Assembly: GCA_950106755.1 (NCBI GenBank)
Contig: OX467091.1
Location: forward strand, 26,677,538-26,741,537
Origin: Climacium dendroides
Taxonomy: Eukaryota; Streptophyta; Bryopsida; Hypnales; Climaciaceae
Length of the DNA: 64,000 nt
Direction: 5' to 3'
Each line of letters starts with the position of its first letter. The first letter of the stretch is position 1. Made by a program: the position numbers and the translations under genes. Shown piece by piece: positions 21,537-61,239 of the stretch. Under the pieces are notes generated by a model, which saw nothing but the letters and a program-made list of their open reading frames with translations, was not told the origin of the DNA and did no database searches.

Positions 21537-21726
21537 TAGTAAAAAGGTATAAAAGAACTAGGTGGTCCATCATTATTAAGTATTAGGTGTGTAAGTGCTT
21601 GTTGGTCTTCAAATTTGGGTGAAATTTTTTTAGATTCTAATAAAAATTTCACCTAAATTTAAGAGCACCAAGCTTTTACACAACTAATAATGATAGACTA
21701 CCAAGTTTTTTCATACTTTTCTACTA
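21537..21726. mobile_element. 190-bp foldback MITE-like element
   Basis: The left arm from TAGTAAAAAGGTAT and the right arm ending ATACTTTTCTACTA are inverted copies over about 80 bp. The inner pair is ATTTGGGTGAAATTTT / AAAATTTCACCTAAAT, with a loop of about 15 bp. The arms have diverged, with small gaps. The outermost bases do not give a clear target duplication, so the superfamily is unknown. Confidence 0.75.
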
Positions 21727-21902: not shown

Positions 21903-21912
21903 GACATTAAAT
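21903..21912. repeat. Target-site duplication, left, copy 1
   Basis: GACATTAAAT directly precedes the left terminal repeat and is repeated exactly at 38,419-38,428. Confidence 0.92.
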
Positions 21913-22018
21913 CAGGGTTGCTAGCAGGCGAGCTTGTGAGCGTGAGCCCATGAGCCTGTGAGCCTGTGAGCGGGAAATTTTTTTTATTAAAAAAATTTGA
22001 GGGACCTATGACCGTGGA
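21913..22018 (+). repeat. Left terminal inverted repeat region, copy 1
   Basis: It starts CAGGGTTGCTAGCAGGCGAG and continues with three direct GAGC(C/G)TGTGAGC-type words, then a T-rich spacer and GGGACCTATGACCGTGG (22,001-22,017). The right end carries the same modules inverted at 38,219-38,418. Confidence 0.88.
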
Positions 22019-22264
22019 TGTAGGTGTCTTTTAAAAAAAAATATGAGTTCATTATTAAAAAATTTAACTTACTTACAAACTTAAATGAAATAAAAAATTG
22101 CAACAATCAATTGTGATTAATTTTTATAGAAAATATAGAATGCAAAATTGTGAAGGGAAATAAATCATACTAAAGATGTAGCCATAAAACACACAATGAA
22201 ATCAAATCATATTGAAAATGAATACATAACTATTTGACTCATGAGATATGTCAATCTCATGAAT

Positions 22265-25200
22265 CTAAGTTGCAGTGGACTCAGTTGCAGATGCCAAGAT
22301 ACTCTCAGACTCTGAAGTCTCTTTTCCCTCTGATGCTGATCCATCTATGAATTGCAAAACATTAAGAGCATATGTATCTTTTATACGTTTTGGTTCTAAG
22401 CTACCAAAGTTTGCAAACGCTGATGCTAATTGCTCTGCATAAATTGGGAGATTAAAAGACTTTTCCGGACTTAGAACAAGTTTGCGTCTCTTCCTCAATG
22501 CATTAGCGGACATCAGTTTTTGACGCCTGCAAAAAGAACAGATAGAATATTAGAATTACAAAATAGAAGAAGTAGTATGTAAAGGGAGACTCCAAAAATA
22601 TGAAAAACTTACTTACTAGGTTTAGTCTGGCGAGGAAATTTTCGAGGCACTATAGTCATGGCGTCTGGATCTTGTGAAGATGTAATTGGTGGTGGTGGTT
22701 GCGTTTCAGTTATTATCACATCTACTTCAGTGGTTTTCTTCATGGGTCTAAGGACACCATTGAAGACATTATTGTCCTCCTCCAAAGCCACTATATGTCG
22801 TCCCGTACCGTGACATGCTGTAATCGATGCATCTACAATTTACAAAATGCAATTCATGATATGAATGAATCACTATGTCAATAGATATATAAAAGATCAA
22901 TTATTGAAATGAAAACTAACCAGTAGATGCTGTGCAGTCCAAAACCAAGTCTCCTTCTTCAATTGTCCCTTCTATAAGGAATTGGAAGAGCCTACTATCT
23001 TTTTCGCGAGGGCCTCGCCATGGAATTTTGGTTTCTGGATTGATCAACATGGTATCTTCAGTTGTGTAGTTAATTAATGTGTCATCTTTGCGGAGGTCTA
23101 CTTTCGCCTTCTGCATTGCTTGTGACCGCTTTAAAAAGAACTTTGACTTCTCTTTATCACCAAGGTCCTTCACTAGAAGAGTGATTCCAAACTTCAAAGT
23201 CTGGAGTCATAAAAAAAATATATATTAGAATTGAATACAACAATTTTAGAATGCCAATTTCCATTAAAATCATGAAAACATTTGAAAACACTAACCGTTT
23301 CGGAGTCATCCACAGCTGAGGTTAAGTGCATACGATTGATGCCCAACCATTCCTTCTTCTTCACCAATGAAGGATAAGACTCGCACAATCCTGCAATAAT
23401 GCCCTTTGAATCGGCACACCATGACTAAAATACTATCATGCAACCATGGTCTTGTAAGTGCATATCTGCAAAGAGGAAGGCCGATTGAATGGCCTCATAC
23501 TCTAGGTCTGAATTCCATGAAGGTATTGCTTTCTCTGGAGCAGATACCTCTGGAACAGGTAAATTCTCTTGGCAGTCAGAAAAGATGAAGTCCACTAAGG
23601 GTGCTCGGCTCACTTTACCTCCATACATACGGGGCTTCCCTGATGCGAACTGCAGAAACAAATTAATTGAAATAATCAATATTTCATATAGCAATTGAAA
23701 ATTTTAAAAATCCCCCCCAATTAAAAAGATTCAAAGTTTTAGGAAAAAAACAATGCTTACCTTGTTTAGAAAGGTCGCAACTTCACTATAGCATGTAGGT
23801 CCCTCAGACTCCATGTTATCCATAATATCAGCAATAGAGACGTTCAAGATCAATTCCTCTGAAGTAACGTCTGCATCATCACTAACAACTATGACCTGAG
23901 TACCTTGTGTCACCATATCCTCTGTGAAATCTGGAAGTACTGCCTTTCTTTTCATTCCACTTTGCGATCCACTTTGCATGTGCGAGTTTTGATCAACCGT
24001 TGAAGAGGTTGGCACTTGTTTGTTCCCTTCTTCCTTCTTCTTGCCTTTGTTTTTCCCCTTGCCCTCCTCTTTTTCCTTCTCCTTCTCTACCAACTTCGCA
24101 AGACGCTCTGCTTCTTTTTTCTCCTTGTTCTTACGAATCTCCTGTTCTTTGTTTTCTTTCTTCTTGTCAGCAACCATCCTCCTTGCAATTGCTCTCTTCT
24201 TCTGTTGATCAGTGTAGTTGTTGAATTCGGGAACCTCCACATCAATGACGCCGAGACCATCTAATGATTTTCGAAGTTCCACCTCTGATGGATGAGTGAA
24301 TGTCAATGGACAATCTAAATACCATGCACCACCACTAAGATGAACTGTGGTGAATGTCTTCAGTTGGCTGGATGTATACATGCATTCTTCAGAACTCCGA
24401 TCCAACCATGTGGTCAGAAATGGAGGAAGATCCTCCCTAGAGATGGCGTTCTTTTGTAAGAGCTCATACTTGAAGTACCTATGATAAGAACATAAAAAAT
24501 TTAATAATAATGACATATCAAAATTTGAATACTCATTAAAATATCAATGTTTAGGGTTATTTCACACAACTGACCACTTCAACTTCAAAAAACAAATCAG
24601 AAACAGTTGTTCACTACAAAAGTATTCTAGGCATCCAAAGAAGTTCTACTATGCACGACTATTCTATAAAATAATGCTATAGTGAGGGTACAATGAAGGT
24701 TTACGATTCCCCTTGTTGGACCTAATGCAGGTTTGGGGGGGTTTTCATCGTACCGTAGCCTTCAATGTTGTCATTGTATTTTAGAAACTAATTCACTTCA
24801 TTTAAAAAACTCAAACACTCAAAACAAATAACCACATATACTAATCTTCTAAGAAATTGATGAAACATAAAATCCAAATTCACTTAAACATATCGGAAAA
24901 TAACTCTACGAACAGCGTCATTTGAGCCATCAAAATTTAAGAAGGTTTCGGACTTCTTGAAAGGATTCGATCCCTTCAAAGCTGGGCCGAAACCTTGATC
25001 CCAAATCTTCCTCCTCCATCCTTCTATATACTCTGAAAGATACTCCGGTTGAAGAGGGACTGCCATATTGATTGTGAGGCCATCTTTCTTGACCACATTG
25101 TCGAAGTATTCCACTGCGCAATCCTCAATCTACAAGATGTTCTTGTTAAATAATTTTCATTGTTGTCAAACATTAATAAAATGCACCACTTCAAGAAAAT

Positions 25201-26854
25201 GACATTACAGACATAAAGCTATTTCACATGAAAACAATCACTTACCCCTGCCCACCAGACCCATTTATTGAGGAAGGGACCCAACTTCTCTTCGGAAACT
25301 GGCTTTAGAGGGAAGCGTCTAGCATCCTGTGAAGGTACGGATGAGTTCCACCACTTCAACAACTTTATCTTCTGAGTTGCAGAGGTATTGCAAGTGGCTA
25401 TCATCTGGAGCTTTTCCAAAGTCATTTCCGGAACTTCATTTGTGGTTCAATGCTTTTCAACCTTCAAAGTCACATAAGATTTTATCAACATCAAATTAAC
25501 AATTCAAATAAAACATACAACAACAAATTCATGCTTCAAATGCATTCAGCACCTCTTCCAGAAATCCTGGACCATGAGCAGGGTTTGCCACTGCAAGCAA
25601 TTTCCCCATTTTCACGTATAACTTAGCTGCCTTCTCTTTAGCTCCTGTCCTCATGGCATTAGCCACTCCCTCATCGCTTTTATCATCCACTGCTGTCACT
25701 TCATTGTACTTTCGTACTGCAGCATCCGCTCCTTGTGCTATCTCTTGCTACAAAATATCATCAGTATCATTTCAGTTATATCAATTTTGTTAATGCTTTA
25801 GCCCTTGCTATCCAATAATGATAAATACTGAAAGATATATAATATTGTCAGAACATTGAGACTCTCACCCGAAAAACAAATGCTGTGAAGACCTCAATTG
25901 GCATGGAATACCATGTTTTCCTCACTCCTTGCATACCACAACATTTCCTCTCAGAAGGTCTCAACATTTCATTGAACTTTTCAAAAGGCAGAAGTCCATA
26001 TTTTTGAACACGGTACAGAGTGTGAACCAAATTGGTCTTCACATGGGAATCCTCCGTTGACCTACAATTCATACAATACAATAAATATTTTGCTGAGACA
26101 TATACAAATTCAACCTAGGAATTCTGAATGTCAAAGCTCGGAAACAATAAATTAATAAATTATGATGTCATTTTACTTACTTGTTGATGTCATGCATAAT
26201 TTGCATGACCAACTCTATTCTGCTCTTTGTATCCAAAATTATGGTGTCCACCGAAATGTGCCAAGACCGGTCCGCAACATGCAACCTAGAAATATGATTC
26301 ATCCAAGCCAAGCGACGGTGATTTCCATCGCAGATAAAGAACTTGGAGTTCTTTAAGTGACTCAGCTCCGGGACAGAATTAAGAAAATCATTGAAGATTT
26401 CATTTTCTGCCTTCCATATAGGGTCCCAAGCCTCCATGTCAGCTGCTGAGAATTCCGAGGACTCCCCAACCTCATTAGTTGTGGACACATAGAAAACTGC
26501 GGCTCCATCCTGATATCCATGAACAAACTCTTGCTCAAGTTTAACAAGATCACAAGAGAGGGTGGGTCTAACCATTAGCATAGGTACCAATCTACACAAA
26601 GGTATATGCATTCGTGAGTGTTTTTGAGGCCTCATCCTCAAATTCTCAATGGTGGCCACAGAGTTCACCTTCTGCAACCGTCGAAGTTCATCTTCTAGCA
26701 ACTCCTTCTCCTCCTTCTCCTCCTCCTCCTCATTAGCATTCACCTCTGCATTTCTTTCTTCCTGAGTGCCAATTTCTGGCTGACCTCTTTCATTGGTAGG
26801 TGGAGTTGATAGAACTTCCTCTGGCTGTGATAAATTAATTGATGACTCCTCCAT
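22265..26854 (-). pseudogene. ParB/Srx-like + DNA N4/N6-methyltransferase fusion, copy 1
   Basis: Ten exons keep phase throughout: 26854-26181, 26061-25869, 25747-25553, 25452-25246, 25129-24890, 24468-23761, 23649-23296, 23200-22921, 22832-22613 and 22526-22265, about 1,110 codons. Only the 24468 acceptor is uncertain. Exon 1 has an acidic Glu-rich stretch, then a ParB/Srx-type domain (PLCRLVPMLMVRPT... to FFICDGNHRRLAW). Exon 6 has a Lys/Glu coiled coil and a SUMO-interacting-like VIVVSDD. Exon 7 holds the methylase motif IV region (DFIFSDCQENLP, then GCMIVF). Exons 8-9 hold motif I (GDLVLDCTAS...ITACHGTGRHIVALEED). This order fits beta-class N4/N6 methylases, but D-P-P-Y is D-C-Q-E. In-frame stops lie at 25449-25447 (copy 2 has Trp) and 23427-23425. 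The role is inferred: DNA recognition or modification serving the transposon. Confidence 0.85.
24680..24782. repeat. Imperfect hairpin in an intron of the ParB-methyltransferase gene
   Basis: TACAATGAAGGTTTACG near 24,689 is matched, inverted, by CGTAGCCTTCAATGTTGTCATTGTA near 24,754-24,778. It lies in the intron between 24,890 and 24,468 and may be a small foldback insertion. Confidence 0.6.
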
Positions 26855-27074
26855 CTGCAATATCATGTACATTTTTTAAGTCAATCAGGAAGTATGAATA
26901 TGTCTTCATGAAATTACAATTTAAATTTATACAACAAATCTTTACTATGATGGTAAAAAGTGTCTCATTACAAAAAATTGTAAAAGTAATACGTAATGGA
27001 AAGAAATATGATAACACCAATGGTTAAGTAATACAAATGTTGAAGCAATGGAATGGTGTCTACTCCTTCCAAAC

Positions 27075-27527
27075 TCAATCAATTTCTATAGTACCATCTA
27101 AGTCGGAGCTCAAGTGGATGAGGACAATTTCATGCTTGCCCAAACCAGAGCTGCAAGTACAATCTCTAATATCCTCTATTATTGGACTAGAAATTGAGAT
27201 TGACGTTTCAGAATTCGAGCTACTATACTCAATCTCAGAACTCTCAGGAGAAAACACTTGTTGTTTTCGTTTTCGTCTGTTGGGGTCGCTGAACCTACTG
27301 CAATGAGGTTCATCTAATTCATCAGCGGCTCGGTCACAAGCATCAAGAATGTCTCCAAGGCTTACCAAGTCAGTGTCTTTATGAGGCAATGATTGGCTAC
27401 CTATGTTGACAATCTTGTCTTCTGGAGTCCTAAGTTCCGAAGTACGCGCAACATCTACAATATGGGTTGCCACATTGCTTGGCAATGGTAAAGGTGCATA
27501 CTCGTTCAGACTCTCATCTGTATCCAT
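27075..27527 (-). CDS. orfC, short acidic Ser-rich protein, copy 1
   Basis: This open frame of 150 codons starts right after an acceptor-like site (TTGTGCAG|ATGG), so an upstream exon is possible. It ends in the same place as its copy-2 counterpart: both finish ...HLSS-L-G---I-D-stop. That shows the stop is a real C-terminus and that this is not the first exon of the ParB-methyltransferase gene, which begins about 220 bp downstream on the same strand. Conserved blocks are FSPESSEIEYS and EIVLIHLSSDLDG. The second resembles a SUMO-interacting motif: a hydrophobic core followed by Ser and acidic residues. The protein has no fold I recognise. It is a third element-encoded protein and could be a regulator or adaptor. 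Confidence 0.65.
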   Translation of the reverse strand: MDTDESLNEYAPLPLPSNVATHIVDVARTSELRTPEDKIVNIGSQSLPHKDTDLVSLGDILDACDRAADELDEPHCSRFSDPNRRKRKQQVFSPESSEIEYSSSNSETSISISSPIIEDIRDCTCSSGLGKHEIVLIHLSSDLDGTIEID

Positions 27528-27861
27528 CTGCACAAGCATTATAAGAATGAGGTAGGCCAATAACAATCAAAACAAACAAAAAAACTTTTATAACAAATAG
27601 GAAGAAAAACCAAATGACAAATGGGAAGATAAAATAAATATCAAAACGTTGCTATATTATTGTAAATTCTATTGACTTCATAAATGTATACAACTTAAAT
27701 TGAACTCCAAAATTGCTTTGTAGAACTTCCTTTATGCAAGAAAACACTAAAAAAGTGGAAACTCTAAATTACCCCTCTCAATTCCTCCTATTTCTCATGA
27801 CATATTCTTATTCAACACTAAAAATGAGAATATCATAATTCTACAAGTCTTCCTTTGGTTT

Positions 27862-27963
27862 GCAAGACCAGATATGGGGGTACATTAAGATACTCCTAGG
27901 AATGTCGTCGGATCTGACGGCCTTCTTGGGGTTATCTAGCCATACCCCCATTATTGGTCTTGC
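27862..27963. repeat. G-rich hairpin 1 (GCAAGACC...GGTCTTGC)
   Basis: The outer arms GCAAGACCAGATATGGGGGT and ACCCCCATTATTGGTCTTGC pair with few mismatches. An inner, less perfect stem has the apex GTCGGATCTGAC at 27,907-27,918. Confidence 0.85.
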
Positions 27964-28470
27964 TGACAGAACATGACTGTCAATTTGGATTTATTTACAT
28001 TACAATATGAAATTCACATCCCCGTGAAACTCTCACATAGACACAACTAAGACTAACATTAATGTATGAATACAGCAAGATTATAGACAACATAAATATT
28101 TATCTCTTCACATTTCAGCTTCCATGAACAAATAACAGGCATTTATATGATTATTTCAAACATTTTCTTCGAATATATGGTTAAATGAGCAAACACTGTC
28201 ATAGTCAGTCCAAGAGAAAATGTTTTACCAAAACCAAGTGATTGAAATTGGCATCTCCCTCCACGTGGCATGCCACTAACGCTGACAAGGACCATTGATG
28301 TTGAAGTATTAAACTAATTAAAACATTCAACATGGAAAGAGAGAAAACTTAGGACAACTTCAAGGAGGTTTAAAAAGCCCTACAGTCACTTCCACAAGAC
28401 AAAAAAAAATTATTTTCCTAAAAGACGTTGGATTGGTTGGTCGCCTCATCATCCGTACACCTTCTTCCAA

Positions 28471-28512
28471 GACCAAAAATGGGGGTAGCGGGAGCTACCC
28501 CCGTTTCTGGTC
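28471..28512. repeat. G-rich hairpin 2
   Basis: GACCAAAAATGGGGGTAG and CTACCCCCGTTTCTGGTC pair around a loop of about 6 bp. The arms resemble those of hairpin 1, as if an internal part had been lost. Confidence 0.85.
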
Positions 28513-29048
28513 CTCCTGCCCGGTTGACTTGCTGGCCCTTCAAAGATCTTGGAAAAATCTCTAGTTAAATAATTTAAGTAATGTTAATCAACTAAATAAA
28601 AAAAATATTTTATTAAAAAAAATATTTTATTAAAAAAAATATTTTATTAAAAAAAATATTTTATTTTAAAAACACATTACTAGATAATATTCGTACCGAT
28701 AATATCCATTACAGATGTGGTACCCCTCACACTTGCATCTACCTACCGATTAAAGAATCAAAGAACACTAGCATTAGATATTTTACAGAACTTCATCATT
28801 CTCAAATTTTTGGAAAGAGAACATGCGAGAATTTTTATAGGACTATTGCTTTGCCTAGTTGCATTGACGTCTGAGGCAGTGGTAAGATCGAATTGAGGAA
28901 AACACGGGACGAGCTACACTGTTGTTCAGGGTTAAGGGTACGAAGCATCTATTTAAGGGGAGGATCGAAAGAAAATTTAACCCTGCAGGCAACAGTTGGT
29001 TAGGGTAGGAAGCATCTATTCGATTCAAGAGAATCCAATGGGGCCAGC

Positions 29049-29166
29049 AAGTCCAGAAAGGGGGGTAGCGCGAGGTACCCCTGACAACCCCGTCGGGTCC
29101 AATTGGGGTCCCTGGGGTCCGACTGGGGTCCCTGGGGTCCCTAGCGCTACCCCCCTTTCTAGACTT
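29049..29166. repeat. G-rich hairpin 3 with GGGGTCC repeats
   Basis: AAGTCCAGAAAGGGGGGTAGC and GCTACCCCCCTTTCTAGACTT pair. The interior carries tandem TGGGGTCC words (29,103-29,140). The arm motif is shared with hairpins 1 and 2. Confidence 0.85.
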
Positions 29167-29214
29167 GGAAGTCAAACCATTAATCTTCCGAGTATTCCGG
29201 GGAGCGAAGGCGCA

Positions 29215-29875
29215 GGCTTCGGAGATGCACTAGGGTCCTTCCAACTTCGATTGCACCACATTTCCCACGTCGATCTCCGGTACGACCGAAGCAGGGAAAG
29301 ACCCATCGATCAGGGTGTAAGACGGTCCGTTTTTTTTACTATACAAGAAACGATTCCCGCAAATGATAATTCACTGAACTACAATCTGCAATCGGATCTA
29401 CGCTTCAGACTAGTAAGGAGCTGCACCTTCCAAACAGAATTTGACGAACATCCATGATGATCGATGTGCATGGGGAACACAACTGGAAAGCGGACAAATT
29501 GAAAAACTCGGAACTACTACCCCCGTTTGCGGACTTCGAAGATAAAATTATGAACTTACGGTTTTGCGGTTTAGGGGGGTGTAGGCTGCAGATATGTACT
29601 GGAGTCCTCTCAACTCCGACTACTAGATATTTCCCACATCGATCTCTGGTACGACCAAAGCAGGAAGACCAATCGATTAGGCGTTAGGACAGTCCGGGTA
29701 TTTTTAAAATACCCAAAACCTATGTCATTCAACTGTCGGCAAATGCAGAATTACTTAACTGTGTAGAGAATCTGCAATGGAATCTACGATTGAAACTTGG
29801 AAGGAGCTGCACCTTCGAAATAAGATTCGACAAACATCAGGGTGATCAGCAGGACGATGTGCATGGGGACAGAAT
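29215..29875 (+). repeat. Diverged tandem duplication, about 370-bp unit
   Basis: TTTCCCAC(G/A)TCGATCTC-GG(T)ACGACC occurs near 29,261 and 29,631. AAGGAGCTGCACCTTC occurs at 29,415 and 29,801, followed by GATGTGCATGGGGA in both. The unit is about 370-386 bp with small indels. It sits in the likely promoter region. Copy 2 has a different duplicated unit of similar size in the equivalent place. Confidence 0.8.
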
Positions 29876-32800
29876 TTACGTGGTGGAAACGACTACCACA
29901 TGCGTGATCCGGCCTTGATAAGAATGATCGAAATCGAATGGCAGAATGTAAAGGAGTCCTACTGGCTAAACTAGCTTACCGGCTTACACCTAAACATTCC
30001 GACCTGAAAAGCAGTCCGATCCTCTGAACTTGACAAAAGCATCTGGCTATGCGTCCATGGATCTTAACTTGTATGCATTCGGAGTTCAACCGAGGCTTTG
30101 ACTACTTGCCTGATAATTATTCAGGACCAAGAAATCATCTCTAGATGGAACTTCAACAGGAATACCTCAAATACAGAATACTCAGTTCACAAGATTTCTA
30201 AATTCGTGTGTGTCTAGAAATTAATAGCACCTGTAGCCAGTCGCTTCGAGGCCAGCAGGTTTCAAAATTACTTAAGACGAAGATTGGATTTGTACACTAG
30301 CTCAATATCTACAGACTTGAAACAACGAGAATGAGGTCGGCTCTTAATCAAGAACATCATGTACAAGTGCTGTCCATCATGATTGCACCGAGCAAAAGAA
30401 AGTGGCCATCCAGTGTTCATGTGAATGAGCTTAATAAACTAGAAGCGGACAATGAAAGCGATACAGATCCATAGAATGGGCAGGTTTATATACAATGATC
30501 AACCTTTAAGCATCACAGTTGGTGAATTTAACGGGTTCATACATGGAAGTGTGTACTGGAGGTTTACGGTCGATCTCCCTTGAAAAAAAACCATGTATCA
30601 AACGGACTGCATGAAAACAAAAAAAAATATAAGATGAGGTCGGTGATTACCTGCTCCGTGTCTTCGATGCGTGCCACCAACCTTGTTTGCGAATCTTCAC
30701 TTCCCAGTCTTCCACGCCTCCTCGTATTCCTCATTGTGAAGTAACGCTGCTCCTGCTGCCAAATCGTGAATAACAGGAACAGGAACCGAAGTGCTTCAGA
30801 ATTGAAGGCACCACGGAATAGATTGCAAAGACCACCAAATGTGAGAAGACCAATGAGTTCAAGCTGAGATTTATACCACAGGTTGTCATAATCTGAAATT
30901 CAGAAGGACTTCGAGAATTACATATGGACCCTCAACCGCAACCATGTGCAGAGGAGCTTTCATGGACGCCGGCAATCCAGATTCATTCACTGGCGGCTTC
31001 CTATTCCACAATAACCACCCGTTTGTAAAGGCGAGGCGTTCAAATTCTTGAGCGAGGTATTCAAGGGTACTTTGAATCATGATGTGCCCAAAATATAAAG
31101 GGAGATGGTACATGAGTTAAGGCTGGTTCGCACCACGTCTTAAGGGAGCACTGTTACAAGGAATAAAATGCTGTCAAAGCTTGGCGACTCCTTCAATAGG
31201 GAAGTAGGTGGGTTCCTGGATTTGGTCCGGGAATATCGATGAGACATTCTCACTGCGCACTACTGAGAAGATTCTTCTCGCACTACATGGTTTCGGAGAA
31301 GTCCAAGTGAGCCATGGGATGGCCAGGGTGAATTGACCCCCGTCCTTGTCCCTACCTTGCAACCCGTGGAATTTTCTATTTGCAAGGTTTAATTTTTTTT
31401 TTAAATTCTGAATTTATTTTTGCAATCAGAGGCCCCAAATTACCTCGGAGGAGATGCAAGAATTCTCAAAAAAATGGCACAACATAATTTTTTTTTCTGT
31501 CAAACCAAAGTTGACCAGGCCAATGAAGGGGCCAATTCTCCCTGCGCCCATGGGACTGGTCTTATAAGTTGAATATCATGAACGCATGATACTGATTAAA
31601 AATTTGAGCTTGTTTCTTTTACCTTTGCAATCTAAAGAAGCCCAAAGACAATTGAGAACACCTACGAGCAACACTCCAAAGTTTTTTACTTTCAATATAG
31701 CGCACCAAAATACATGCTCAGTTGTGTTGGGATCTTCTTTCGATTACCAACAAGATTCAACAAAATTGAAGTCAGAGTAATAATAGGAACTATGATCAAA
31801 TCCTTAGTAGGGTGCTCATGAATGTACATATCTTACTGCTGGGTAACATTTGTATATCAAATCATAACTCAAGTTAATTCAAACAATGCAAGATACATTT
31901 TTTGCTACATTTTTCTACTAGAAACAATTTTATTTTCAACTATTTAGTGGCTACTTGGATAATAAGGAAGTCTTGTCTTTGCCCTTAAGTCATGAGCATT
32001 CTGGAATTTTTTAAAGGCAAAACACGCAATATAAAATAAAATAAAGCATCTAGCAATTGAATTAACCTCTAAAGTCCCAAGGCATGTTTCGGGAAGAAAT
32101 TGTAAAAAAATGTGACATTTTTGTGTAGTGAGCAAAAAATGAAAGAAAATATTGTTTTTCTTAAAATTCAACTATATAAGTTGGAACTAGAATACTATAG
32201 GAATGTAGGGAAATGAATCATTTCTTGAAAATGAGAAAGGAGGGATTCAATATGGACTCCGCATAGAGGACTTGCCCTCTAGTACAAAGGAAGTGCGAGT
32301 AAACAGCTGGACTTACCAGGTCTTGCCTTTCTGCATTACAACCTTAATACCCACTCAATTCCTCTTGGTTGTGTCTCCATGGTACTACCTACAGCTATGA
32401 TTTAGGAAATAGAATGTTTTCATTGAAGGGGCCCCCTAGATTGTGGAAGAATAATCCAAGCTCAAGTTCATTCCTTTGGTTCTATTTTTGCCTCTGATAA
32501 TAATTATAAGTGAACTCCGAGTAAAAGGCGGATTCTATGCAAATTATTTTATTAATAATGCTTTAAAAAACCAGAAGGAGCATCATGGATTAAGAAAGCA
32601 ACCATGAAATTGGAGAAGACATTGGATTCTGATCTGTAAAGATTTTTATTCTAATTTGGAAAAAGCCATGATGTTAGTGACATTTTGAATTTTGATTCTC
32701 ATTCTTCTAGATAGTATTTGATTCTATAGGCTTCTTGTCGTACACAAAGAATAGGTTATTCTATGGTATTGTACTGTTTTCTTGTCCTATATGAAGAGTT

Positions 32801-33342
32801 GATTTTCCCATACTTAGTTGCATTTAGAGATTTTTTCCCATGAACATTAGAAGTGCATTGCTTCAAACATTGCATTTAGACCATGCATCCAAGTACATCA
32901 ATCATATGGAATACACGTACGAATTTATAGCAAAGGATGTTTCAAACCTATTACACTCTTACAAGACATGTCATGACCAAATGTATTGAAAGAATTTGGA
33001 CTTATGTTTGTCTCAGTAGCTTAGTCTAAGTCATGTCATTTTATTTTGTGTGATTGGCGTGCAAGTACTTCTATTGTGAATGCATTGAATGTGTTGATTA
33101 AAGCCGCCAACAACAATAAATGCTTCACTGTATGGCACTATGATTGGAATTTTTTTAAAGTTATTTTCCAACTGTTATTTTTCCATACACTTCCAGTTTA
33201 CTTAGTAACTTCCATCCTCCTTTATTTTCACTAGTTCCACAGTAACAAATCCATACACTATAAGAAAGCAAATATTCATTGACAAGAGATCAAAGACTGC
33301 TTTCTTTTATCCATATTGTTCTCCAAGAGCAAAGTTTGAATC

Positions 33343-36300
33343 ATGGCTTGTATTCGTGTAGATGGCCATGACATTCCCCTAGTGTTTCCAGTAGATGAAG
33401 GTGGACATGCTAGAGTTCTAAGCCATCTATTGCACGTCCGCTTTAGATTTGTAGAGTCTTCCATCTATGTCGAAGAAGAGAGAATGTCTGAATTAGGAGA
33501 AGTGCAGCAATCAATTCTAATATTGAAGTCTACAGAGGAAGGAAGGAAGTGTTGGTATCTTCCTATTGGAAACTATAGAGCGTATGGATTGCCACTGTCT
33601 ATGGTAGGTACATCAACAGAAATTCGAAGTCGGCAGTCAGATAACTCTTCTGTAGATATGCCATACGTTGCTCATATGGTTTCACCCAGTCCTAGTCGTG
33701 AAGCTCTTCCAGTCCTTCTTGATAATTCTACTCTCCGCCCAGTGAAAATTGAGAAGTTAGATGCCATCATAGAGTTGTCTAGTGAATCAGAAGGAGAGTC
33801 CCCTAACTTAACAGTTCACAAAAATGCGTGCAATATCAAAGTTGCATGGCATGAAAATACTTTGGTGAAGCCACTGTCAAGCACCCCATCAAACAGTGGA
33901 GGTCGAACTCAAGTGTCCCGTCCTCCATTGCATCCAGATGTAGGGAATCGAGTGAGTATAATGGAGTCTTTGAGGGGATTAGGGAAAATGCATCGTTCAC
34001 GGAATGAGTTGTCGATGACGGACTTGAACAGCATGAAGCACCATTGCGTACAGTTTCTTCCACCCGTCTTCAATGGAAATGTCATATTTGAGTTGCCTCC
34101 ATGTCGTTCATCTTCTTCTTCATCAGCGGCCAAGAACTTGGAGGGAATGGACAAGAGATATGATGGACACCTATAGTGCAAGTTGGTGACCACAAACATC
34201 CACAACTCCGATAAGTTGAAGTTCCGTAAGTCATACTGCGCTGGTCATCTTATTTGTCTAAATGTAGAGTGTGGCTATCTGAAGAGGGCTTCAAAGCACA
34301 ACGAAACTGAGTGGAGTGGTTCAACAACCTTCGCTTTCACAGTAGGGGATACTCCTCCCAGAGACTGTACTCTAGTTTGCAAACTTTGTAAAAAAACTCC
34401 TACGTGTCTAAGCACCTGTGATGCTAGGATGTACTACTGCTATAGTGAGAATCCAAAAATGACTAGGGCCGCTATTCATTTCGGAGATCATGCTCACCCT
34501 ATTGCTAAAGGCATGTATAGAGATTCTGCAGAGAAGATTAGTGAATTGATTGCAGAACAAGTGGCCTGAACACCAACGGCCACGAACTCCGCCATTGCTC
34601 TATCGGCAAGCAAAGACTTTCTTACAAACTATCTATTCCACAACGGAAATGGAGAGAAGAAGATGTTGGAAGGGGAGGAATTGGAGGAAGTAATGGATTG
34701 TTTCCAGTATTTGAGTAGTCCCAACATTCGGAATGTGATTTCTTCATTTCGCTCAAACAATAGAGGAGGAGTCATAGACAACATTATGACCATGAAGAGA
34801 GACTCAAAGTTTGAGTACATTCATGATAGCGTTTTTCCTGGACAAGGAAAAGAGAAGGTATACCTTTTCAAGATGCTCACCGAAGGACCTGGTAGTGGAG
34901 TAGACTTGGTGAAGCGCATGCAACCAGGGGGAAATCTGCAGAATGCATGGATGATGTTTGACCACGTGAAGCGTGTGAAGGATTGGACCACAATGGCTTG
35001 CCACGTGTACGATTTTGAGTACAAAAAGGTAATGACCATTGCAACATGTGATATGCAGTCCGAAGATACAGAAATTCAAGTGCAATTCTGGAGGTCATTG
35101 AATGTTGTAATGTCAAGACATGGACTGGATCAACCAAACTTCAAAGGGTTCATGGCAGATAGTGCTATGGCCAATTGGAACGCAGTTCGAATTGTTTATG
35201 GAAGTGGATGTGCCAATGACAAAATGGAGAATCGGGAGAGGACATGCTTATTGCATTGGAGTACTTCTCTCCAAAAACATACTCAGAAATACATAAAGGA
35301 AGCATTTCAACAACAACACAATACACTGTGCAAATAGTATAAAGATGCGAAAACTATAGAAGAGGCAGAGACACGTTACCTAGCAATTCGTTCATGGTGG
35401 TTATCATCAGGTGCTACTACGGAAGATGCGCTTCATCACTTGGAGCATTGGTTGGCATTTTGGCATTTCAGATATCGACAGTGGGGGGGCTTCATGCAAA
35501 TGGTAAGTAAATATTTACTTTTGTGTATGTCAATTTGTGAGCATACAAAGAAGTTGTAGTCATGTTCGACTTGGAAAATGAAAATTGTAATTAACTTTAG
35601 TGATTAATGAATAGCCATGTGTATGCATATTTGTAAGAAAATGAAAATTGTACCTAAAACCCGGATTTGATGGGTGTTTCCATGGTAATTCACGGTACAT
35701 TCAATTTTAGTGACAGAGGTAATTGTAAAGAGGGGTTTGGATACAGGATTCTATTGTCGTTGTGAAATAATTTACTTCTTGACGTACTTGTTTGAATACA
35801 AATAGTATTCTTTTTGTAGTTCATTCACTAGGAATGCCTTTCATCCCATATGAACTATACATGCACATAGTTGATGGTGTTCACAATTTTCTATAGCTTT
35901 AATGAATAAAAGTAATTATGAGAAGTAATTTTGATTATTGGGTGTATGTCTAGGATTTGAATTTGGAGGAAATGGCAGACATGCCTTCATGCAATCTATC
36001 AGAGACGGTTCATAATAAGTGGCTTCAAATGTCTGGCAACCGAGGAAACAATTTGTTTGATGCCACATGTGATGATAGCATCCGTGCATGGATGCAAATG
36101 ACAAACTATCGTGCATATTTGAGAGGCCATGCCTCTAGTTCCGGTCCGTCAAAGGGGGAGTTGAAGTTGAAAGCTGCAAGACGAAGTGGAGACCCTAAAA
36201 AAATGGCCAAAGCGTTGAATTCCTTACCCGGGTTTGAAGGAATTGGAAGTCGTATACCACATTTGGAAGGAGAAGAGATCTTTGGAAGCACAAAGAGGAA

Positions 36301-37342
36301 ATTGGACGTCCCGATTGGTGACGCAAGAGACTCACATCGACCAGACAAAGTGAATTTCTCTCAACCTCGTGTCCGAACAAGGTCCGCTATTCCTCCTACA
36401 AACTCTTTAGAGGGCAAAGGAAAAGAACCAGAGTCAAATAGGTATAACCATGTCACAATTGCATTTGAAAGCGATTGTGACACATCAAAATGGCACATTG
36501 CAAGGATCAACCACAAATCTAATGCTAAGTGTCAAGCTCAGCAGCGAGGGTCAAATATGAAGTGCACTGCTCGAATTGCAAGAGGACAAAAGGGAACACC
36601 AGCTCCAACTTATCGTGGTAGAAAAGAAGATTATGGAACTAAACGAGAAGTATTTGCAGATTTCTGGTTTTGTGCAGATGATATTGAACGATGTGTGAAG
36701 GGTACAAAGTGTAAGTGGGTAATAGATTGGCCAGATGTCCCAGAAATTTGGCCTATTTTGACAAGGACAAACCTCAGTCGAGATGAGACTTTGCTGTTGC
36801 AACATGCTGGCTTTCGGCTACAAGAACAACCGACATTGTCACCACGTCGCTTGTTCAGTATGTCAAAGATTTTTGAAAGTGTTGTGTATAATGAGGTCCC
36901 GCCAACAAATGCAGATGTGTACCCCATAGTGAGGAACAATCGAACCATACGTCGAATAGCAAATGCACCAACTGCAGAACAACGCAATAAGTAGGAGAGT
37001 GCAGGCAATGTTAGAGGTCAAATTCTGGAAGTGACCTTGCTTCCTTTCCCGGGACTAGGTGCAATCATATCTCTGGAGACTGGGATAGATCAGAACACAA
37101 ATGTGTATCAAGTAACAGTGGGTATGTTCCCTTCTTGCATATGCCCAGACTTTGTGAACATGTCTATTTCAGCTATTGGAGGACGTCAACAGTATGTGAA
37201 TTGCAAGCACCTATACTACTTGTATCGATATTTTTGCAAGATGGACATCCATGACGACAAATTCATTCATGCACTGAGTTATAGTTTCAATGAGTTGAAA
37301 CTTCTTTTACTTCGAGCAGGAATGATCACTATGCCAGAATAG
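33343..37342 (+). pseudogene. Large MULE-type transposase with SWIM finger, copy 1
   Basis: Exon 1 is 33343-35502, then a GTAAGT...TAG intron, and exon 2 is 35954-37342. There are 1,182 codons in one frame without indels. Features by codon: IIELSSESEGES, SUMO-interacting-like (about 143-154); Cys/His clusters YCAGHLICLNVEC and CDARMYYC...HFGDHAHP (about 295-385), like the WRKY-GCM1/FLYWCH fingers of MULE proteins; an RNase-H-like core with VYDFEY (Asp557), GFMADSAMANW (Asp606) and CLLHW (Cys635, His638); and a SWIM-type CICPDF...YVNCKHLYYLYRYF from about 1,115. Four stops interrupt it: 34174-34176, 34567-34569, 35335-35337 and 36992-36994. Copy 2 reads Trp, Lys, Gln and Trp at these sites. 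The first, third and fourth are simple C-to-T or G-to-A changes. The catalytic third residue is not assigned. Its divergence from mudrA-type proteins is large, but the 10-bp target duplication supports MULE. Confidence 0.85.
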
Positions 37343-38218
37343 GCATGTAGTAGACTTCATATGTATTTCAGTGGTATTTTATTAATATATTTAAAATACT
37401 ATTTAATTGATGGGAACTTAAAAAAAATGGAAGCTTGAAAATTGCAATTGAAAGCGAGAATGTAGTTATAAAAATATGAACATGAATGACATTTTCTTTT
37501 CCTTCTTTTGTGGGTTTTTTTTTTTTGAATTGTATTTTTCTGGTCTTTCCCCTTTTTTTCCCTTGGTTTTCCATTAGTATTTCATTCTTCTTGAAATTGA
37601 CTTTCTCATGTTCTGTCATGCACTTGTATGTTTTTTAATTTTTTCCGTACCCTAAGTCCATACTAATTTTTTTTCCTCCACTGTTACTTGTAAACCCTTT
37701 TACTTTTCTATTTTCTGTCATTTAGTACCCTCCTTCTTACACTTTACTTCCCTTTTTTTCCTTTCGTTTTTCTTTTCTTTTCCATGTCATTTCTTTTTCT
37801 TGGTTGCTTACCCATTTTCTAGGAAGACGTCTTCTATGCTTTATATTTATTTTTTTCACTTGAACAATCACTCCATTAAGTTGGAGTATATTAGCGAGAG
37901 GTCTATGAGACTGAAATGTGATGGCCCGGGTTCGAATCCCGTGAGGCCCAAAATTATGCCGTTCGGCGCAATCCCTATATTGAACTAAGTCTTAAGAGTG
38001 CTTGTAGCGCAGCTATAGTGGAGGATAGGTAATGTCCATCAAATATTTTTTATAGTATTCTTTGCTGAACTAATTATATTTTTTCCTATAAATGATTGGT
38101 CATTGCATACATAGTTGCATTATAGAGTTGGAAGTACAGGCCTAACTATATACTAATGTTCAAGGAAATTTTCACATTTCAAATGGTCATTATTGAAACA
38201 ACTTGTTTTTAAAAAATT
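37343..38218. other. 3' flank of the transposase, T-rich, with a tRNA-like patch
   Basis: Past the transposase stop the DNA is T-rich (37,490-37,860) and has no gene, apart from a tRNA-like segment described separately. The region leads into the right terminal repeat. Confidence 0.6.
37880..37952 (+). repeat. tRNA-like / SINE-head-like segment
   Basis: TTAGCGAGAGGTC at about 37,891 resembles a pol III A box, and GGGTTCGAATCCC at about 37,928-37,940 is an excellent B box with a T-arm-like stem. The spacing is about 37 bp. A full cloverleaf is not evident, so a tRNA-derived SINE head or tRNA relic is likelier than a working tRNA gene. Confidence 0.5.
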
Positions 38219-38418
38219 CACGGTTATAGGTGGCTTGGTCATAGGTCCCAAATTTTACCAAAAATAGTAAGTACAAGTCTTTTTTTAGAATTTTTTTTTA
38301 AAAAAAATTTGGGAAGTTTTTTTTGTTTTTTTTTCTAATTTTTAGGGCTCCACGCTCGCAAGGCCTACGCTTGCAGCTCACAAGCTCACCGCTCAAGGCT
38401 CGCATGCTAGCGTCGTTG
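38219..38418 (-). repeat. Right terminal inverted repeat region, copy 1
   Basis: It reads CACGGTTATAGG...GGTCATAGGTCCC (38,219-38,248), then an A/T tract, then GCTCGCA/AGCTCACAAGCTC words, ending GCTAGCGTCGTTG. These are the left-end modules in inverted order. Confidence 0.88.
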
Positions 38419-38428
38419 GACATTAAAT
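38419..38428. repeat. Target-site duplication, right, copy 1
   Basis: GACATTAAAT, identical to 21,903-21,912. Confidence 0.92.
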
Positions 38429-42554: not shown

Positions 42555-42564
42555 GATCACAAGG
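42555..42564. repeat. Target-site duplication, left, copy 2
   Basis: GATCACAAGG directly precedes the left end and is repeated at 61,445-61,454. Confidence 0.92.
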
Positions 42565-42693
42565 CAAGGTTGCTAGCATGCAAGCGTAGAAGCATGAGCT
42601 TGTGAGCTTGTGAGCGGGAAAAAATCAATTGAAAAATAAAGTGATGTGCCTATGACCGTGGATGTACCTATGACCGTGTATGAAGGGAATTTG
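42565..42693 (+). repeat. Left terminal inverted repeat region, copy 2
   Basis: CAAGGTTGCTAGCATGCAAG, then AGCTTGTGAGCTTGTGAGCG, then two CCTATGACCGTG words (from about 42,650 and 42,668). The modular build equals copy 1. Confidence 0.88.
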
Positions 42694-43343
42694 AGTTTTG
42701 AAAAATGGCTAGGTCATTGAATTTTCAAATTTTGAACGACTTATGCATGGAAGGGAAAGAAATACACTTTGGTTGGTTAGGAATTGCCCATGCATCACTT
42801 GGTCGTATTTTAGGAATTTGGGGGTAAACACTTATAGTGGAGTATTCATTTGAATTGAGACAATTTATTTTTCGTAATTTTTCCTTTGGTTTGTATGAAA
42901 TGTTTTTATATTGACACCCTCCTTTTTGTCTTGGAAGCTCAGTAGATGGTGTGAATATATTTTCTATTCCATTTTAGAAGGCTTTAGTGATGGTGTGAAA
43001 ATTATTTTCTTTTTCACTCATTTATTGTATGAAATTTATTTTGGGGTTTGGATAATACGTTTTATTTTAGGGTTTAGGGATGTTTAGGATTAGGGTCAGT
43101 GTTTGTTCAGAGTGATCTTCTCATCTCATACACCATCTTCCTATGAAAGACTCTATTTCTGTAGTAATTTCATTCTAGTCTCTCTTTTGTTTGCAAATAC
43201 ATATGAAAAAGCAGTGCATACTATCTACAGTAGTGTCAAAGTAAATTAATTACACAATATGTAGCCATAAAACACACAAATCCAATCATCGTGAAAATCA
43301 AAACATATTAGTTTGAGTATTAAGATACATCGATCTCATGAAT
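42694..43343. other. 3' flank of the ParB-methyltransferase gene, copy 2
   Basis: No gene is supported between the left terminal repeat and the stop codon of the - strand gene. Confidence 0.55.
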
Positions 43344-44077
43344 CTAAATTGCCATAGACTCTGTCGCAGATTCCTTATTGCTGGAAGAATCAAAAGTCTC
43401 TCTACCCTCAAATGCTAATCCGTCCATGAACTGCAAGACATTCCGACAATACGAAGGTTTACGATGTTTAGGGATTGAAGTTCCGAACTCAGTAAATGCC
43501 GACACTAGCTGCTCTGCATAGATTGGAAGCTCAAATGACTTCTCTAGGCTCAAGATAAGTCTTCGTCTCTTCTTCCCAGCACCTGCTGCCATCAATCCCT
43601 TGGTGCTGTACATATAAGTGATTGAATATTAGATTTATGAAACCTTATAAGTACCAATCAGACCAATGATTTGAAAACAAAGAAACTTATTTACTAGGTC
43701 TATCTTGCCGAACAAACTTCCGTGCTTTCATAATCATTGCATTTGGATCTTGTGAAACAATAACTGCAGGCGCTTTTGGAACTGCAACTGTGGCAACAAA
43801 AGGGGCAGGCTTTATCATGGGCTCCAAGATGCCTGCAAAAATCTCCTTGTCTGCCTCCAATGCCACAATGTGGCGCCCTGTTGTACGACATGCCGTTATA
43901 GAGGCACCTGAAAAAGCAGGCATGAAGTGAGAATGTCCATGATTTTGGGTATAACATGAATTCCCGATTGTACACATGGTAGAATGATAACTCACCTGTA
44001 GATGCTGTGTAGTCCAGAACCACGTCTCCTTCATTGGTGGTTCCTTCAATGATGTGTTGTAAGAAGCGGGCGTCTTT

Positions 44078-44228
44078 CACTAGTAGAAAAAGGGGGTATA
44101 AATTACTTGTCTTTATGACTACATCGACAACAATGATTGCAAAATAGTCATTTGAAGTCATTTTGAAGTCATTGTTGTTGATGCAGTCATAAAAGACAAA
44201 TAATTAATAGCCCCTTTTTCTACTAGTG
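44078..44228. mobile_element. 151-bp CACTA-type MITE inside the methyltransferase exon
   Basis: The ends are CACTAGTAGAAAAAGGGG and, inverted, CCCCTTTTTCTACTAGTG. The flank TTT is duplicated (44,075-44,077 and 44,229-44,231), a 3-bp duplication as made by CACTA elements. Removing it leaves CGTCTTTTTCCCGAGG, which matches the uninterrupted reading of copy 1 (ATCTTTTTCGCGAGG). The interior is itself partly inverted-repeat (TGACT...AGTCA words). Confidence 0.93.
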
Positions 44229-45892
44229 TTTTTCCCGAGGCCCTCGCCATGGCCTCTTGACCTTGTTGTTCATCAACATGGAATCTTCGGTGGTTTAGTT
44301 GATCAGCAAGTCATCACGCTTTAGGTCCACTTTGGCCTTTGACATGGTTGTGGAGCGCTTGAACGAGAATTTAGATGTACCTCTTACACCCAGGGCTTTC
44401 ACCAAGAGTGTGATGCCAAACTTCAAAGTCTGCAAACATTAAATGAACATAGACATTCAAAGAGTGAATGAAAACATTAAATGCGTATCTAACAGTCCAT
44501 TGTGAAGGGTTGAAAATTTCATACCGTGCTTGTGTGGTCTATGGCCGAAGCCAATTGCACCCATTTCATGCCTATCCATTCTTGGAACTTCACCATTGCG
44601 GGGTACTCTTCACATAATCCCGCAATGGTGCTTAGAGCGTCTACACTCCACGAATGAAACACTTCAATGCAACCCTGGTTCTGCAAGTGTTTTTCTGCAA
44701 AGAAGAACGCTTCATTGATCATGTTGTAGTCCGAGTCCGAGTTCCAGGAAGGCGTGCTTGTATCTGGAACTGACACCCCCGGCACCGGCAAATTTTCTTG
44801 GCAATCAAAGAGCATGAGGTCGAATCCTGGCCACTGCTTTATCGCTTTATTGTGCACCCTGTCCTTCCCTACCGCCATCTATACATATGAATTGTGAGGT
44901 GAGAAGTCTCCATCATGAGGAATGCATAACTTTATATTTTGAAGGTCTAATTTCTGAATAAGAAATTGTTTACTAACCTTCTTAAGAAAATCCATAACTT
45001 GGGTGTAGCAATTGGAGCCTTTTGTCTTTTTGTTGTCCACGACCTCTTCAACAGAGACGTTGAGTACCAACTCCTCTAAAGTGACGATGTCGTTGTCTCC
45101 AATGTGAATAACTTGCATTCCTTGAGTAACAATATCTTCCGTGAACTTTGGCAGCACAACCTTCCTCTTCATTCCAATGTGAACTCCTCCTTCCATTTGC
45201 GAGGGTTGATTCACGGTCGATGATTCCGGAACCAAGTCTTCATCATCTTGCTTCTTCTTCCCTTTCGCTTTGGCCTTTCCTCTTTCTCTTTCTCCTTCTC
45301 CAACAACTTGGCCACATGCTCTGCTTCCCTCTTCTCTTTTGTTTCCACAGCTAATTGGAGCTGAGCTACTTTCCTCCTATCATTCTTGCCCTTCTTTACA
45401 ATGGCTCTATTCCTCTATGCATCGTCCATACCTGCAAACTCATCAACATCCAAATCAATCACTCCAATGCTTTGCAAAGAGTTCCGAAGTTCCACCTCCG
45501 ATGGATGTGTGTATGAACCTAGGCAATCAATGTACCATCCCCCACCATTGAGGGGAGCTGTGGTTAAGGTCTTCAGTTGGTTCGGCATGTACATGCAATC
45601 TGCAGAACTCCGGTCCAAGAAAGTCGAGAGAAACGGGGGCAAGTCCTTTTTTTGAATTGCCCCTTTTGGCTCTAGCTCGTGCTTACAGTACCTGCCAGAT
45701 TTGACAATGCAAATTCAATTTCTAATCACAAATAATATTCTAAAAAAGTCCAAAATGCCATTTCAATGTCATGCACAAGTACATGAACACAGAGCAAGGA
45801 AAACCCGACACAATATGTTATGCCAAAATTCAAATCCTCCGGGCTTACATGAAACAGAATGGGGTGTGTGTGTGAAGGGTTGACCCTCTCAT

Positions 45893-45914
45893 CCACTGTT
45901 AGATCCGACAGTGG
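45893..45914. repeat. Small hairpin with GATCCGAC apex
   Basis: CCACTGT TAGATCCG ACAGTGG: 7-bp perfect arms in an intron of the copy-2 ParB-methyltransferase gene. Related apices occur at five other sites in the two elements. Confidence 0.6.
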
Positions 45915-49191: not shown

Positions 49192-49638
49192 CTAAACAAG
49201 TGGAAAATCTTGAACCTCCGCTACTAGTATTGAAGTGCTTCTTCTACGTCCTCCCTAATTTCCAACCATCAAATTCAAGAAACTCAATATTGATTAGATT
49301 ATCCCTCTTATACTAGAGCAAAAGAATAGAAGACTGCAAAGTGTAATTTCGAAATATAATTATGATAAATGAAAGCTCATATGTTGTGAGTAGTCTGACA
49401 TTGAGCCTTACATCTTGACTGTGAAAATACTATAAGATAATGACTACTACATGTCCTTGGAAAACACTTAATTGATGAAGCAAGGAAATGATATTGCCAA
49501 CAAAGCACAAAAACACATAATTTGACGAAAAGGAAAAAAAATATATGAAAATCCTTACTCATAAAAAGAAATATAAGTAAATTTCAGCTCATAGCATCCA
49601 AATTAAGGATGCTGGCAATGTGACACATGGCTCCTTTG

Positions 49639-50155: not shown

Positions 50156-50394
50156 CGGTACTAGAAATTCGACACCAGAAATTGCCACGTATATTCTAAA
50201 ATGATGATAATCTGAATGGGAATACATAATCTTGTCCACGTCAGCAAACCATAATTGTCGCGCATGAAAGAAGTAATAACCTCCATTTTCTCCCAAGCAC
50301 AAACTGCGAATCCAAGTCCCAAATTGAACAAGGAGTGCCGCAGTGGCAAACACTTCGGCTATTACTTGGGAATCAAGAATCGACTGATCCATTC

Positions 50395-61230: not shown

Positions 61231-61239
61231 ATTTAATAC

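Follow-up and report, generated by a model that had tools for sequence, protein, structure and literature searches.

The window analysed here is a 64,000-nt stretch of the genome of the moss Climacium dendroides. It contains two whole elements, copy 1 at 21913-38418 and copy 2 at 42565-61444. Both are bounded by inverted termini and flanked by a 10-bp target duplication of their own, and in each an accessory gene lies divergent from the transposase gene. The 10-bp target duplications of the two copies differ, and copy 2 is a second element inserted independently of copy 1. The features, in window coordinates, are these.

21903-21912, no strand: left target-site duplication of copy 1, GACATTAAAT
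21913-21933, plus: left terminal inverted repeat of copy 1, core CAGGGTTGCTAGCAGGCGAGC, then TGTGAGC repeats
22005-22016, plus: subterminal motif CCTATGACCGTG at the left end of copy 1
22265-26854, minus: ten-exon accessory gene of copy 1 (spliced model and homologue matches)
26854-26181, 26061-25869, 25747-25553, 25461-25246, 25129-24890, minus: its exons 1 to 5
24468-23761, 23649-23296, 23200-22921, 22832-22613, 22526-22265, minus: its exons 6 to 10
22922-22945, minus: motif I, VLDCTAST, running on in exon 9 to GRHIVALEED
23425-23427, minus: in-frame TAG in exon 7
23563-23577, minus: motif IV position, DCQEN where M1.HpyAVI has DPPYN
25447-25449, minus: in-frame TGA in exon 4
26303-26329, minus: DGNHRRLAW, resembling ParB box II (sequence reading)
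26605-26564, minus: IPLCR...RP (sequence reading)
27075-27527, minus: upstream ORF of 150 aa, with conserved counterparts at 49104-48766 in copy 2 and at locus E
33346-37342, plus: transposase gene of copy 1, exons about 33346-35502 and 35954-37342
38219-38245, minus: two subterminal motifs at the right end of copy 1, CCTATGACCAAG and CCTATAACCGTG, starts 15 bp apart
38398-38418, minus: right terminal inverted repeat of copy 1, CAACGACGCTAGCATGCGAGC on the minus strand
38419-38428, no strand: right target-site duplication of copy 1, GACATTAAAT
42555-42564, no strand: left target-site duplication of copy 2, GATCACAAGG
43344-48540, minus: accessory gene of copy 2, disrupted by stops, by a frameshift and, in exon 8, by a small insertion
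53831-60760, plus: transposase of copy 2, split by a nested insertion (about 54293-57341)
61445-61454, no strand: right target-site duplication of copy 2, GATCACAAGG

The ten phase-consistent exons proposed for the accessory gene in an earlier, sequence-only reading span exactly 22265-26854 on the minus strand, and all nine introns run GT..AG as modelled. The sequence FFICDGNHRRLAW was found at 26341-26303 and the Lys/Glu-rich stretch in exon 6. The predicted protein has an N-terminal DGNHR domain, a middle part, a K/E-rich linker and a methylase-like C-terminal domain. The sequence-only reading overlooked the TGA in exon 4 and the TAG in exon 7. The exon 5 splice donor of copy 1 also looks degraded beside its relatives, and its junction is therefore the weakest in the gene model. 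With two in-frame stops and a degraded donor, the accessory gene of copy 1 is a broken gene. It is nevertheless a gene beyond chance: 84% of the spliced product is matched (E 2.4e-119, 31% identity) by Ceratodon purpureus M758_1G295400, an 1147-aa protein of the same domain order. A second Ceratodon protein, KC19_7G101700 (661 aa), shares only the middle and methylase parts; the C-terminal domain is common to the accessory gene and both moss proteins, which go under the names hypothetical / N-4/N-6 methylase domain proteins. The second accessory-gene copy was matched at 43234-48936 (59-65% nucleotide identity in three pieces). Neither window copy is intact. Copy F, elsewhere in the genome, has aligned exons of accessory gene and transposase without stops.

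Four elements were read at both ends, the two in the window and two elsewhere in the genome (copies E and F). In all four, the transposase gene lies on one strand with the accessory gene divergent, and the target duplications are 10 bp, three exact and one with a single mismatch (judged by eye from the flanks). The terminal inverted repeats have a short core with GCTAGC at seven of the eight ends; the gene-side end of the inverted termini of copy E has diverged. The window has two occurrences of the 11-mer GGACATTAAAT, one at each end of copy 1. With up to two mismatches allowed, the subterminal motif has seven sites at the four element ends in the window against one elsewhere in it, and its doublet with 15-bp spacing stands at the transposase end of all four elements read. 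In copy F the subterminal sites have diverged, and similar sequences are found off the ends too. The family is large (about 16-19 kb) and multi-copy. The N-terminal exon matched at least 192 loci (merged from 223 locus rows) in the 412.6-Mb genome. The accessory gene lies upstream at 76 of the best 150 transposase loci, at a median of 8.2 kb, and among the matches listed 74 of 77 gene-transposase pairs are divergent, with a median distance of 8.2 kb. In a first list, again among the matches listed, 36 of 73 genes were paired with a transposase, every pair being divergent; a random control for that list, run without the two genes of contigs C29 and C100, gave a mean of 0.46 and a maximum of 4 pairs in 200 trials. 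The divergent layout with this gene recurs across diverged subfamilies. The claim that the gene is borne by a transposon, beside a transposase with a weak SWIM match, is borne out by the termini and duplications of the four elements read and by this layout at many loci.

The class of the element is less plain. The transposase of copy 1 has in-frame stops at 34174, 34567, 35335 and 36992, and the MULE models of Pfam did not match the transposase, stop-free copy included. Pfam SWIM gave E.034 for a piece of copy 2 and.71 for a piece of copy F, both below the cut-off, and CxC...CxH is visible in the sequence. The want of any MULE Pfam match would suit a different DDE superfamily in which SWIM fingers go with rather long duplications, such as KDZ/Zisupton; in Zisupton elements, SWIM fingers occur together with target duplications of about 8 bp. 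Such a membership appears improbable, as no KDZ Pfam model matched the transposase and its layout FMADSAMANW...RTCLLHW resembles that of MULE transposases. The 10-bp duplications also fall within the 8-11 bp that passages of PMC6446971 give for MULEs, and the elements have terminal inverted repeats, a trait not universal in MULEs. On the basis of the termini, the 10-bp duplications and the weak SWIM match, the Mutator-like class is likely.

The N-terminal half had been assigned to ParB/Srx; apart from a resemblance in motifs, family libraries, PDB, tblastn and HMM-HMM comparison gave this no significant support. Pfam ParBc matched none of four N-terminal sequences (unrelated families only, E.027-.57), and PHROGs ParB matched one of the four without significance (E.5). 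No ParB/Srx chain was matched in a PDB profile search whose database included such chains, and tblastn against phages gave no ParB match to the N-terminal part. The HMM-HMM check by hhalign of the family N-terminus against ParB, with two of ten phage loci (L045, L049) left out of the ParB alignment as fragments in the frame read, returned a probability of 1.7%, and one of 200 shuffles scored higher. With no significant library, PDB, tblastn or hhalign match, the ParB identity was rejected as unconfirmed. Structure prediction, which the sequence-only reading had suggested, yielded low-confidence models of both domains (mean pLDDT 44.9 for P0001 and 44.3 for the N-terminal exon). Of the prokaryote-type module said to reside in the transposon, the N6/N4 methylase descent and the transposon setting stand, and the ParB part is unsupported.

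The methylase block runs, as had been proposed, from motif IV in exon 7 to motif I in exons 8-9. Across the whole domain, the family profile matched M1.HpyAVI (the name used here for 5hfj/5hek; E 1e-7) and CcrM (E 4.5e-5). At the C-terminus of each of the two Ceratodon relatives, Pfam N6_N4_Mtase scores better than its curated cut-off (E 4.9e-7 and 1.9e-8). The window methylase piece alone reached E.041, below the cut-off, and the full window product had no N6_N4_Mtase match in Pfam. At E <= 10, a Foldseek search with the P0001 model yielded 431 matches, the best at 0.02 and not one under 0.001; the top rows were beta-class methylases, a result not taken as proof. By its profile matches and motif order, the C-terminal domain derives from the beta class (N6-adenine type) of DNA methylases. 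The catalytic DPPYN is, however, replaced by DC[QP][EK]N in all 13 readable copies of the Climacium dendroides genome, one of which has a stop inside; these come from few subfamilies, seven from one, and L040 was left out since motif IV is outside its coverage. Copy 1 reads SDCQEN, neither DPPY nor SPPY, and the pattern [DNS]PP[YFW] is absent from the 13 readable copies. The catalytic-aromatic position is E or K in 13/13, and a proline before it is confined to two copies of the E type, L033 and L044. For its exchanged catalytic motif, we file the gene as a descendant of beta-class methylases and not as an active member, and methylation of DNA has probably been lost. The rotifer enzyme loses its activity when the catalytic Ser and Tyr in its SPPY motif are replaced (passages of PMC8885841). 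The domain is probably a conserved, non-catalytic methylase.

Between the two gene copies in the window, most differences fall on the third position of codons (334/296/652 of 1137 codons), with pN.28 vs pS.75 (saturated). In the methylase exons, dN/dS is 0.13-0.49 in 28 of 28 within-subfamily pairs, and the exon searched is free of stops at 124 of 150 loci scored. By these substitution patterns, the methylase-derived domain is under purifying selection despite its replaced catalytic motif.

The best overall explanation, to which we give a probability of about one half, is that the gene encodes a methylase-derived, non-catalytic, DNA-binding accessory factor of a Mutator-like family that aids expression or transposition. 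The methylase domain would no longer methylate DNA, its fold being kept as a DNA-binding module, and the N-terminal DGNHR domain and charged linker would steer the protein to the element's own DNA. Candidate targets are the CCTATGACCGTG-type sites that lie in pairs close to the element ends; these sites may equally be transposase-binding sites. Once bound, the protein would help the element's expression or transposition. Our guess is that anti-silencing, as by Arabidopsis VANC, is slightly likelier than a transposition helper like maize mudrB. A mudrB-like helper in place of an anti-silencing factor is a tentative but serious candidate: the gene is frequently in the company of the transposase in a fixed layout, and MULEs can carry accessory ORFs, mudrB and MutB among them (passages of PMC6446971), but the observations fit helper and anti-silencer alike.

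Retained N6-adenine or N4-cytosine methylase activity, with which the protein would mark the element's own DNA, seems unlikely. Domain-wide similarity to M1.HpyAVI and CcrM, the strong constraint on the domain and the Ceratodon motifs DTPF and DQPY, which come near D-x-P-[FY], would agree with activity. The E or K at the catalytic aromatic, the proline confined to L033 and L044, and a motif I of DCTASTGAS in place of the usual DPFxGSGTT argue against it, and the earlier suggestion that the protein marks element DNA is weakened because the catalytic motif is replaced in every readable copy. Least probable is a captured passenger, useless to the element as in Pack-MULEs; host gene fragments are frequent in MULEs (passages of PMC13317346 and PMC6446971) and both window copies are broken, but the recurrent divergent layout, the mostly stop-free exon and the aligned exons of copy F, which lack stops, speak otherwise, and purifying selection and linkage to the transposase led us to set this reading aside. 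Beyond the DNA-binding accessory factor preferred here, a wider and rather doubtful proposal is that plant DNA transposons domesticated a bacterial-type amino-methylase, whose Ceratodon form (D-x-P-[FY]) may still mark DNA with 6mA or 4mC and whose form in the Climacium lineage would have become a pseudo-methylase, conserved and with DC[QP]EN as its new site, that acts sequence-specifically in anti-silencing or transposition.

Few means are known by which plant transposons resist silencing or gain mobility, and their accessory genes are among them. If true, a methylase-derived accessory gene selected while its catalytic motif was exchanged would be a new class, and it would permit a direct test of whether plant transposons have ever borne amino-methylation marks (6mA, 4mC). 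The system is testable, since copies are many and one or more of them is stop-free in both genes.

Titles and abstract openings in the open-licence literature, among the matches listed, held no description of such an element. The scan of viral contigs for relatives gave 13 pattern matches, none confirmed by tblastn; a protein-database profile search had no matches, missed its own member P0001 too and is not counted as absence. The Ceratodon proteins keep D-x-P-[FY] at motif IV (DTPF, DQPY), whereas the readable Climacium copies have DC[QP][EK]. The beta-class enzymes M1.HpyAVI and CcrM share with the accessory protein the motif order IV to I and the domain-wide profile match, but the latter has DC[QP][EK] for DPPY, a large fused N-terminal region and nine introns. 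Arabidopsis VANDAL MULEs with VANC are likewise MULE-type, with an extra gene and short repeated non-coding motifs (passages of PMC5735166). VANC motifs form dense arrays whereas the moss element has one or two motifs per end. An epigenetic-enzyme gene also lies beside the transposase in fungal DNA transposons with TET/JBP dioxygenases, and such a gene is carried by oomycete MuDR and Harbinger elements with SET histone methylases, in both cases from other enzyme families and in other hosts (passages of PMC12730594). The bdelloid rotifer N4CMT is also a bacterial-type amino-methylase established in a eukaryote, but, unlike the accessory gene, it belongs to the host, not to a transposon, and has SPPY together with a chromodomain (passages of PMC8885841).

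The accessory gene of this stretch, a ten-exon minus-strand gene with an N-terminal DGNHR domain, a K/E-rich linker and a methylase-like C-terminal domain, is mobile together with a transposable element. Comparison of the window with itself revealed a second copy of both this gene and the transposase (22149-27251 matches 43234-48936, and 33343-37346 matches 53831-60760). Both copies are whole elements.

Elements in the window and their flanking duplications
21913 to 38418, copy 1 element, flanked on both sides by GACATTAAAT
42565 to 61444, copy 2 element, flanked on both sides by GATCACAAGG

GACATTAAAT is present on the plus strand of the window at three places; the 11-mer GGACATTAAAT and GATCACAAGG are each present at two. 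Because their target duplications differ, copies 1 and 2 are two independent insertions, both of which brought the two genes. Two further elements elsewhere in the genome (copies E and F) have similar termini and 10-bp duplications, one exact (TTCATTGATG) and the other with one mismatch as judged by eye from the flanking sequence. Seven of the eight element ends carry a GCTAGC core, the exception being the diverged gene-side end of copy E. These terminal repeats and 10-bp duplications are consistent with Mutator-like elements, for which target duplications of 8-11 bp are described (PMC6446971). The sequence-only reading had called the element a MULE, and its termini agree with that. The transposase shows a CxC...CxH SWIM pattern that scored weakly in Pfam (E.034 and.71), and none of its copies, a stop-free one included, matched a MULE domain. 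We call the element Mutator-like, a putative assignment by termini and duplications that leaves the transposase lineage aside.

Other insertions and repeats were also observed in the window. The copy 2 transposase is split by a nested insertion (54293-57341) whose inverted repeats of 518 bp lie at 54515-55032 and 56286-55769 and are 95.8% alike; an ORF within it spans 54817-55596. Exon 8 of the copy 2 accessory gene holds a small self-complementary insertion (44078-44228) with ends CACTAGTAGAAAAAGGGG, CACTA-like by its ends. A 190-bp stretch just to the left of copy 1 (21537-21726, 77% self-complementary) is probably a MITE, and two direct copies of a repeat of some 190 bp, 95% alike, lie at 63340-63720.

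The pairing of the two genes extends across the surrounding assembly (412.6 Mb, 123 contigs). Among the matches listed for the copy 1 protein, the N-terminal exon was found in at least 73 places; 36 of these 73 accessory genes have a transposase within 25 kb, always in divergent orientation (36/36); random positions gave 0.46 on average. When the N-terminal exon of another subfamily was the query, 124 of the best 150 loci among 983 candidates had no stop inside the match. Both lists combined hold at least 192 distinct loci, defined by their exon matches; termini were read for four elements. Conversely, 76 of the best 150 transposase loci (150 scored of 1085 candidates) have an accessory gene upstream within 20 kb. 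Divergent orientation was seen in 74 of 77 gene-transposase pairs, with distance quartiles of 7.5, 8.2 and 8.6 kb, and one transposase lies on the other side. As they come from best or listed loci, these linkage counts are lower bounds. The gene does not occur merely as a host gene away from terminal repeats, an outcome that would have refuted the sequence-only reading. The remaining 74 transposase loci, with no accessory gene among the listed matches, may be single-gene relatives, or their accessory gene may simply be unlisted. Two small contigs (C29:1568571-1584304 and C100:3224-18957) contain the same pieces in mirrored order, namely one gene exon and a pair of transposases separated by 7391 bp; this resembles a duplicated part of the assembly.

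The rebuilt spliced model of the copy 1 accessory gene has ten exons in phase, from 26854 to 22265 on the minus strand, and all nine introns are GT..AG as modelled. The exon structure and coordinates first proposed were correct, but the implied intactness was not: this copy is a broken gene, because two stop codons lie inside the model (exons 4 and 7) and the exon 5 donor appears degraded compared with its relatives. Upstream on the same strand lies a 150-aa ORF (27075-27527), conserved in copy 2 (48766-49104) and locus E, whereas tblastn did not recover it from locus F; it may be a third gene, or a 5' portion of the accessory gene that the model misses.

The C-terminal domain is of methylase descent. 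With X at the stops, the spliced product matched a sole protein at E <= 0.001 among 7988 candidates scored, M758_1G295400 of Ceratodon purpureus (1147 aa; E 2.4e-119, 31% identity over 84% of the product). Used as a query, this protein gave one additional relative among 7123 candidates, KC19_7G101700 (661 aa), which is without the N-terminal part. These Ceratodon relatives suggest that the element's host is a moss. Pfam N6_N4_Mtase exceeds the curated cut-off in both Ceratodon proteins; in the window copy, the methylase piece reached only E.041 and the full spliced product had no Pfam match. A profile built from six rows of the methylase part matched six sequences of the PDB set at E <= 1, four of them DNA methylases, including M1.HpyAVI (E 1e-7) and CcrM (E 4.5e-5). 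The match spans motif IV to motif I, the order read from the sequence at the outset.

Motif IV of beta-class methylases is DPPY or SPPY. In this genome the motif has been lost: all 13 readable copies, from few subfamilies, have D-C-x-[EK]-N (DCQEN, DCPEN or DCQKN; one copy has a stop inside the motif), unlike the Ceratodon proteins with DTPF and DQPY. The alignment is steady here: DCQENLPV stands opposite DQPYNSPV in one Ceratodon protein and DPPYNISV in M1.HpyAVI. The accessory genes of copies 1 and 2 differ by 334, 296 and 652 changes at the three codon positions of 1137 codons (pN.28; pS.75, saturated), and all 28 within-subfamily pairs compared over the methylase exons have a dN/dS of 0.13-0.49. 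By these ratios, the domain is constrained despite the replacement of motif IV. Since the replacement is conserved and selection is purifying, a pseudo-enzyme with a retained fold is suggested, in which activity would have been lost. It is also possible that the domain may have changed its chemistry instead. The rotifer enzyme N4CMT loses its activity when SPPY is changed to APPA (PMC8885841).

The N-terminal part had been assigned to ParB, and by eye it is ParB-like (IPLCR..RP, strand, DGNHR.LAW, helix, strand). This assignment is unproven, and none of the comparisons made bears it out. For four N-terminal sequences, Pfam gave no ParBc and unrelated families only (E.027-.57), and PHROGs gave one ParB match (E.5). 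The N-terminal profile retrieved just two proteins from the PDB sequences, one ribosomal (E.22) and the other an RxLR protein (E.63), and no ParB or sulfiredoxin chain although ParB chains were present in the set; tblastn found no phage ParB at E <= 10. Two structure predictions were too poor in quality to inform on the question. HMM-HMM alignment with 12 ParB sequences (hhalign) gave 1.7% (0.4% in global mode). Its score of 18.65 was exceeded by one of 200 column-shuffled controls, and the aligned box was the correct one, which suggests a faint ParB signal. Some phage ParB-like proteins (loci L050 and L053) are interrupted between strand 2 and box II by an insertion, at the position of the plant protein's insert of about 45 residues.

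A short motif, CCTATGACCGTG, lies close to each element end. Within two mismatches, seven sites are at the four element ends in the window versus one elsewhere, and a doublet with starts 15 bp apart is present at the transposase end of all four elements. Copy F has a diverged form of the motif, with similar sequences away from the ends as well. The accessory protein could bind these candidate sites in the way that VANC binds motifs of VANDAL elements (PMC5735166). They could instead be bound by the transposase. We consider a DNA-binding accessory factor the likeliest role of the protein. An active methylase, which the descent of the domain would allow and the loss of motif IV disfavors, comes next, and a passenger, to be set against the selection on the methylase exons, is the least likely. 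For an accessory factor, anti-silencing would be a little ahead of help in transposition.

No such element appeared among the titles and abstract beginnings listed for the open-licence literature searched. The word methyltransferase has no occurrence in PMC6446971 and PMC13317346, nor has ParB in PMC13317346 and PMC12730594. What is already known is that MULEs carry extra genes, namely mudrB, MutB, vanB, vanC, SET and OTU (PMC6446971, PMC12730594), and that TET/JBP genes reside in fungal transposons (PMC12730594); a further paper concerns polyvalent proteins of phages and plasmids with ParB domains (PMC5512222).
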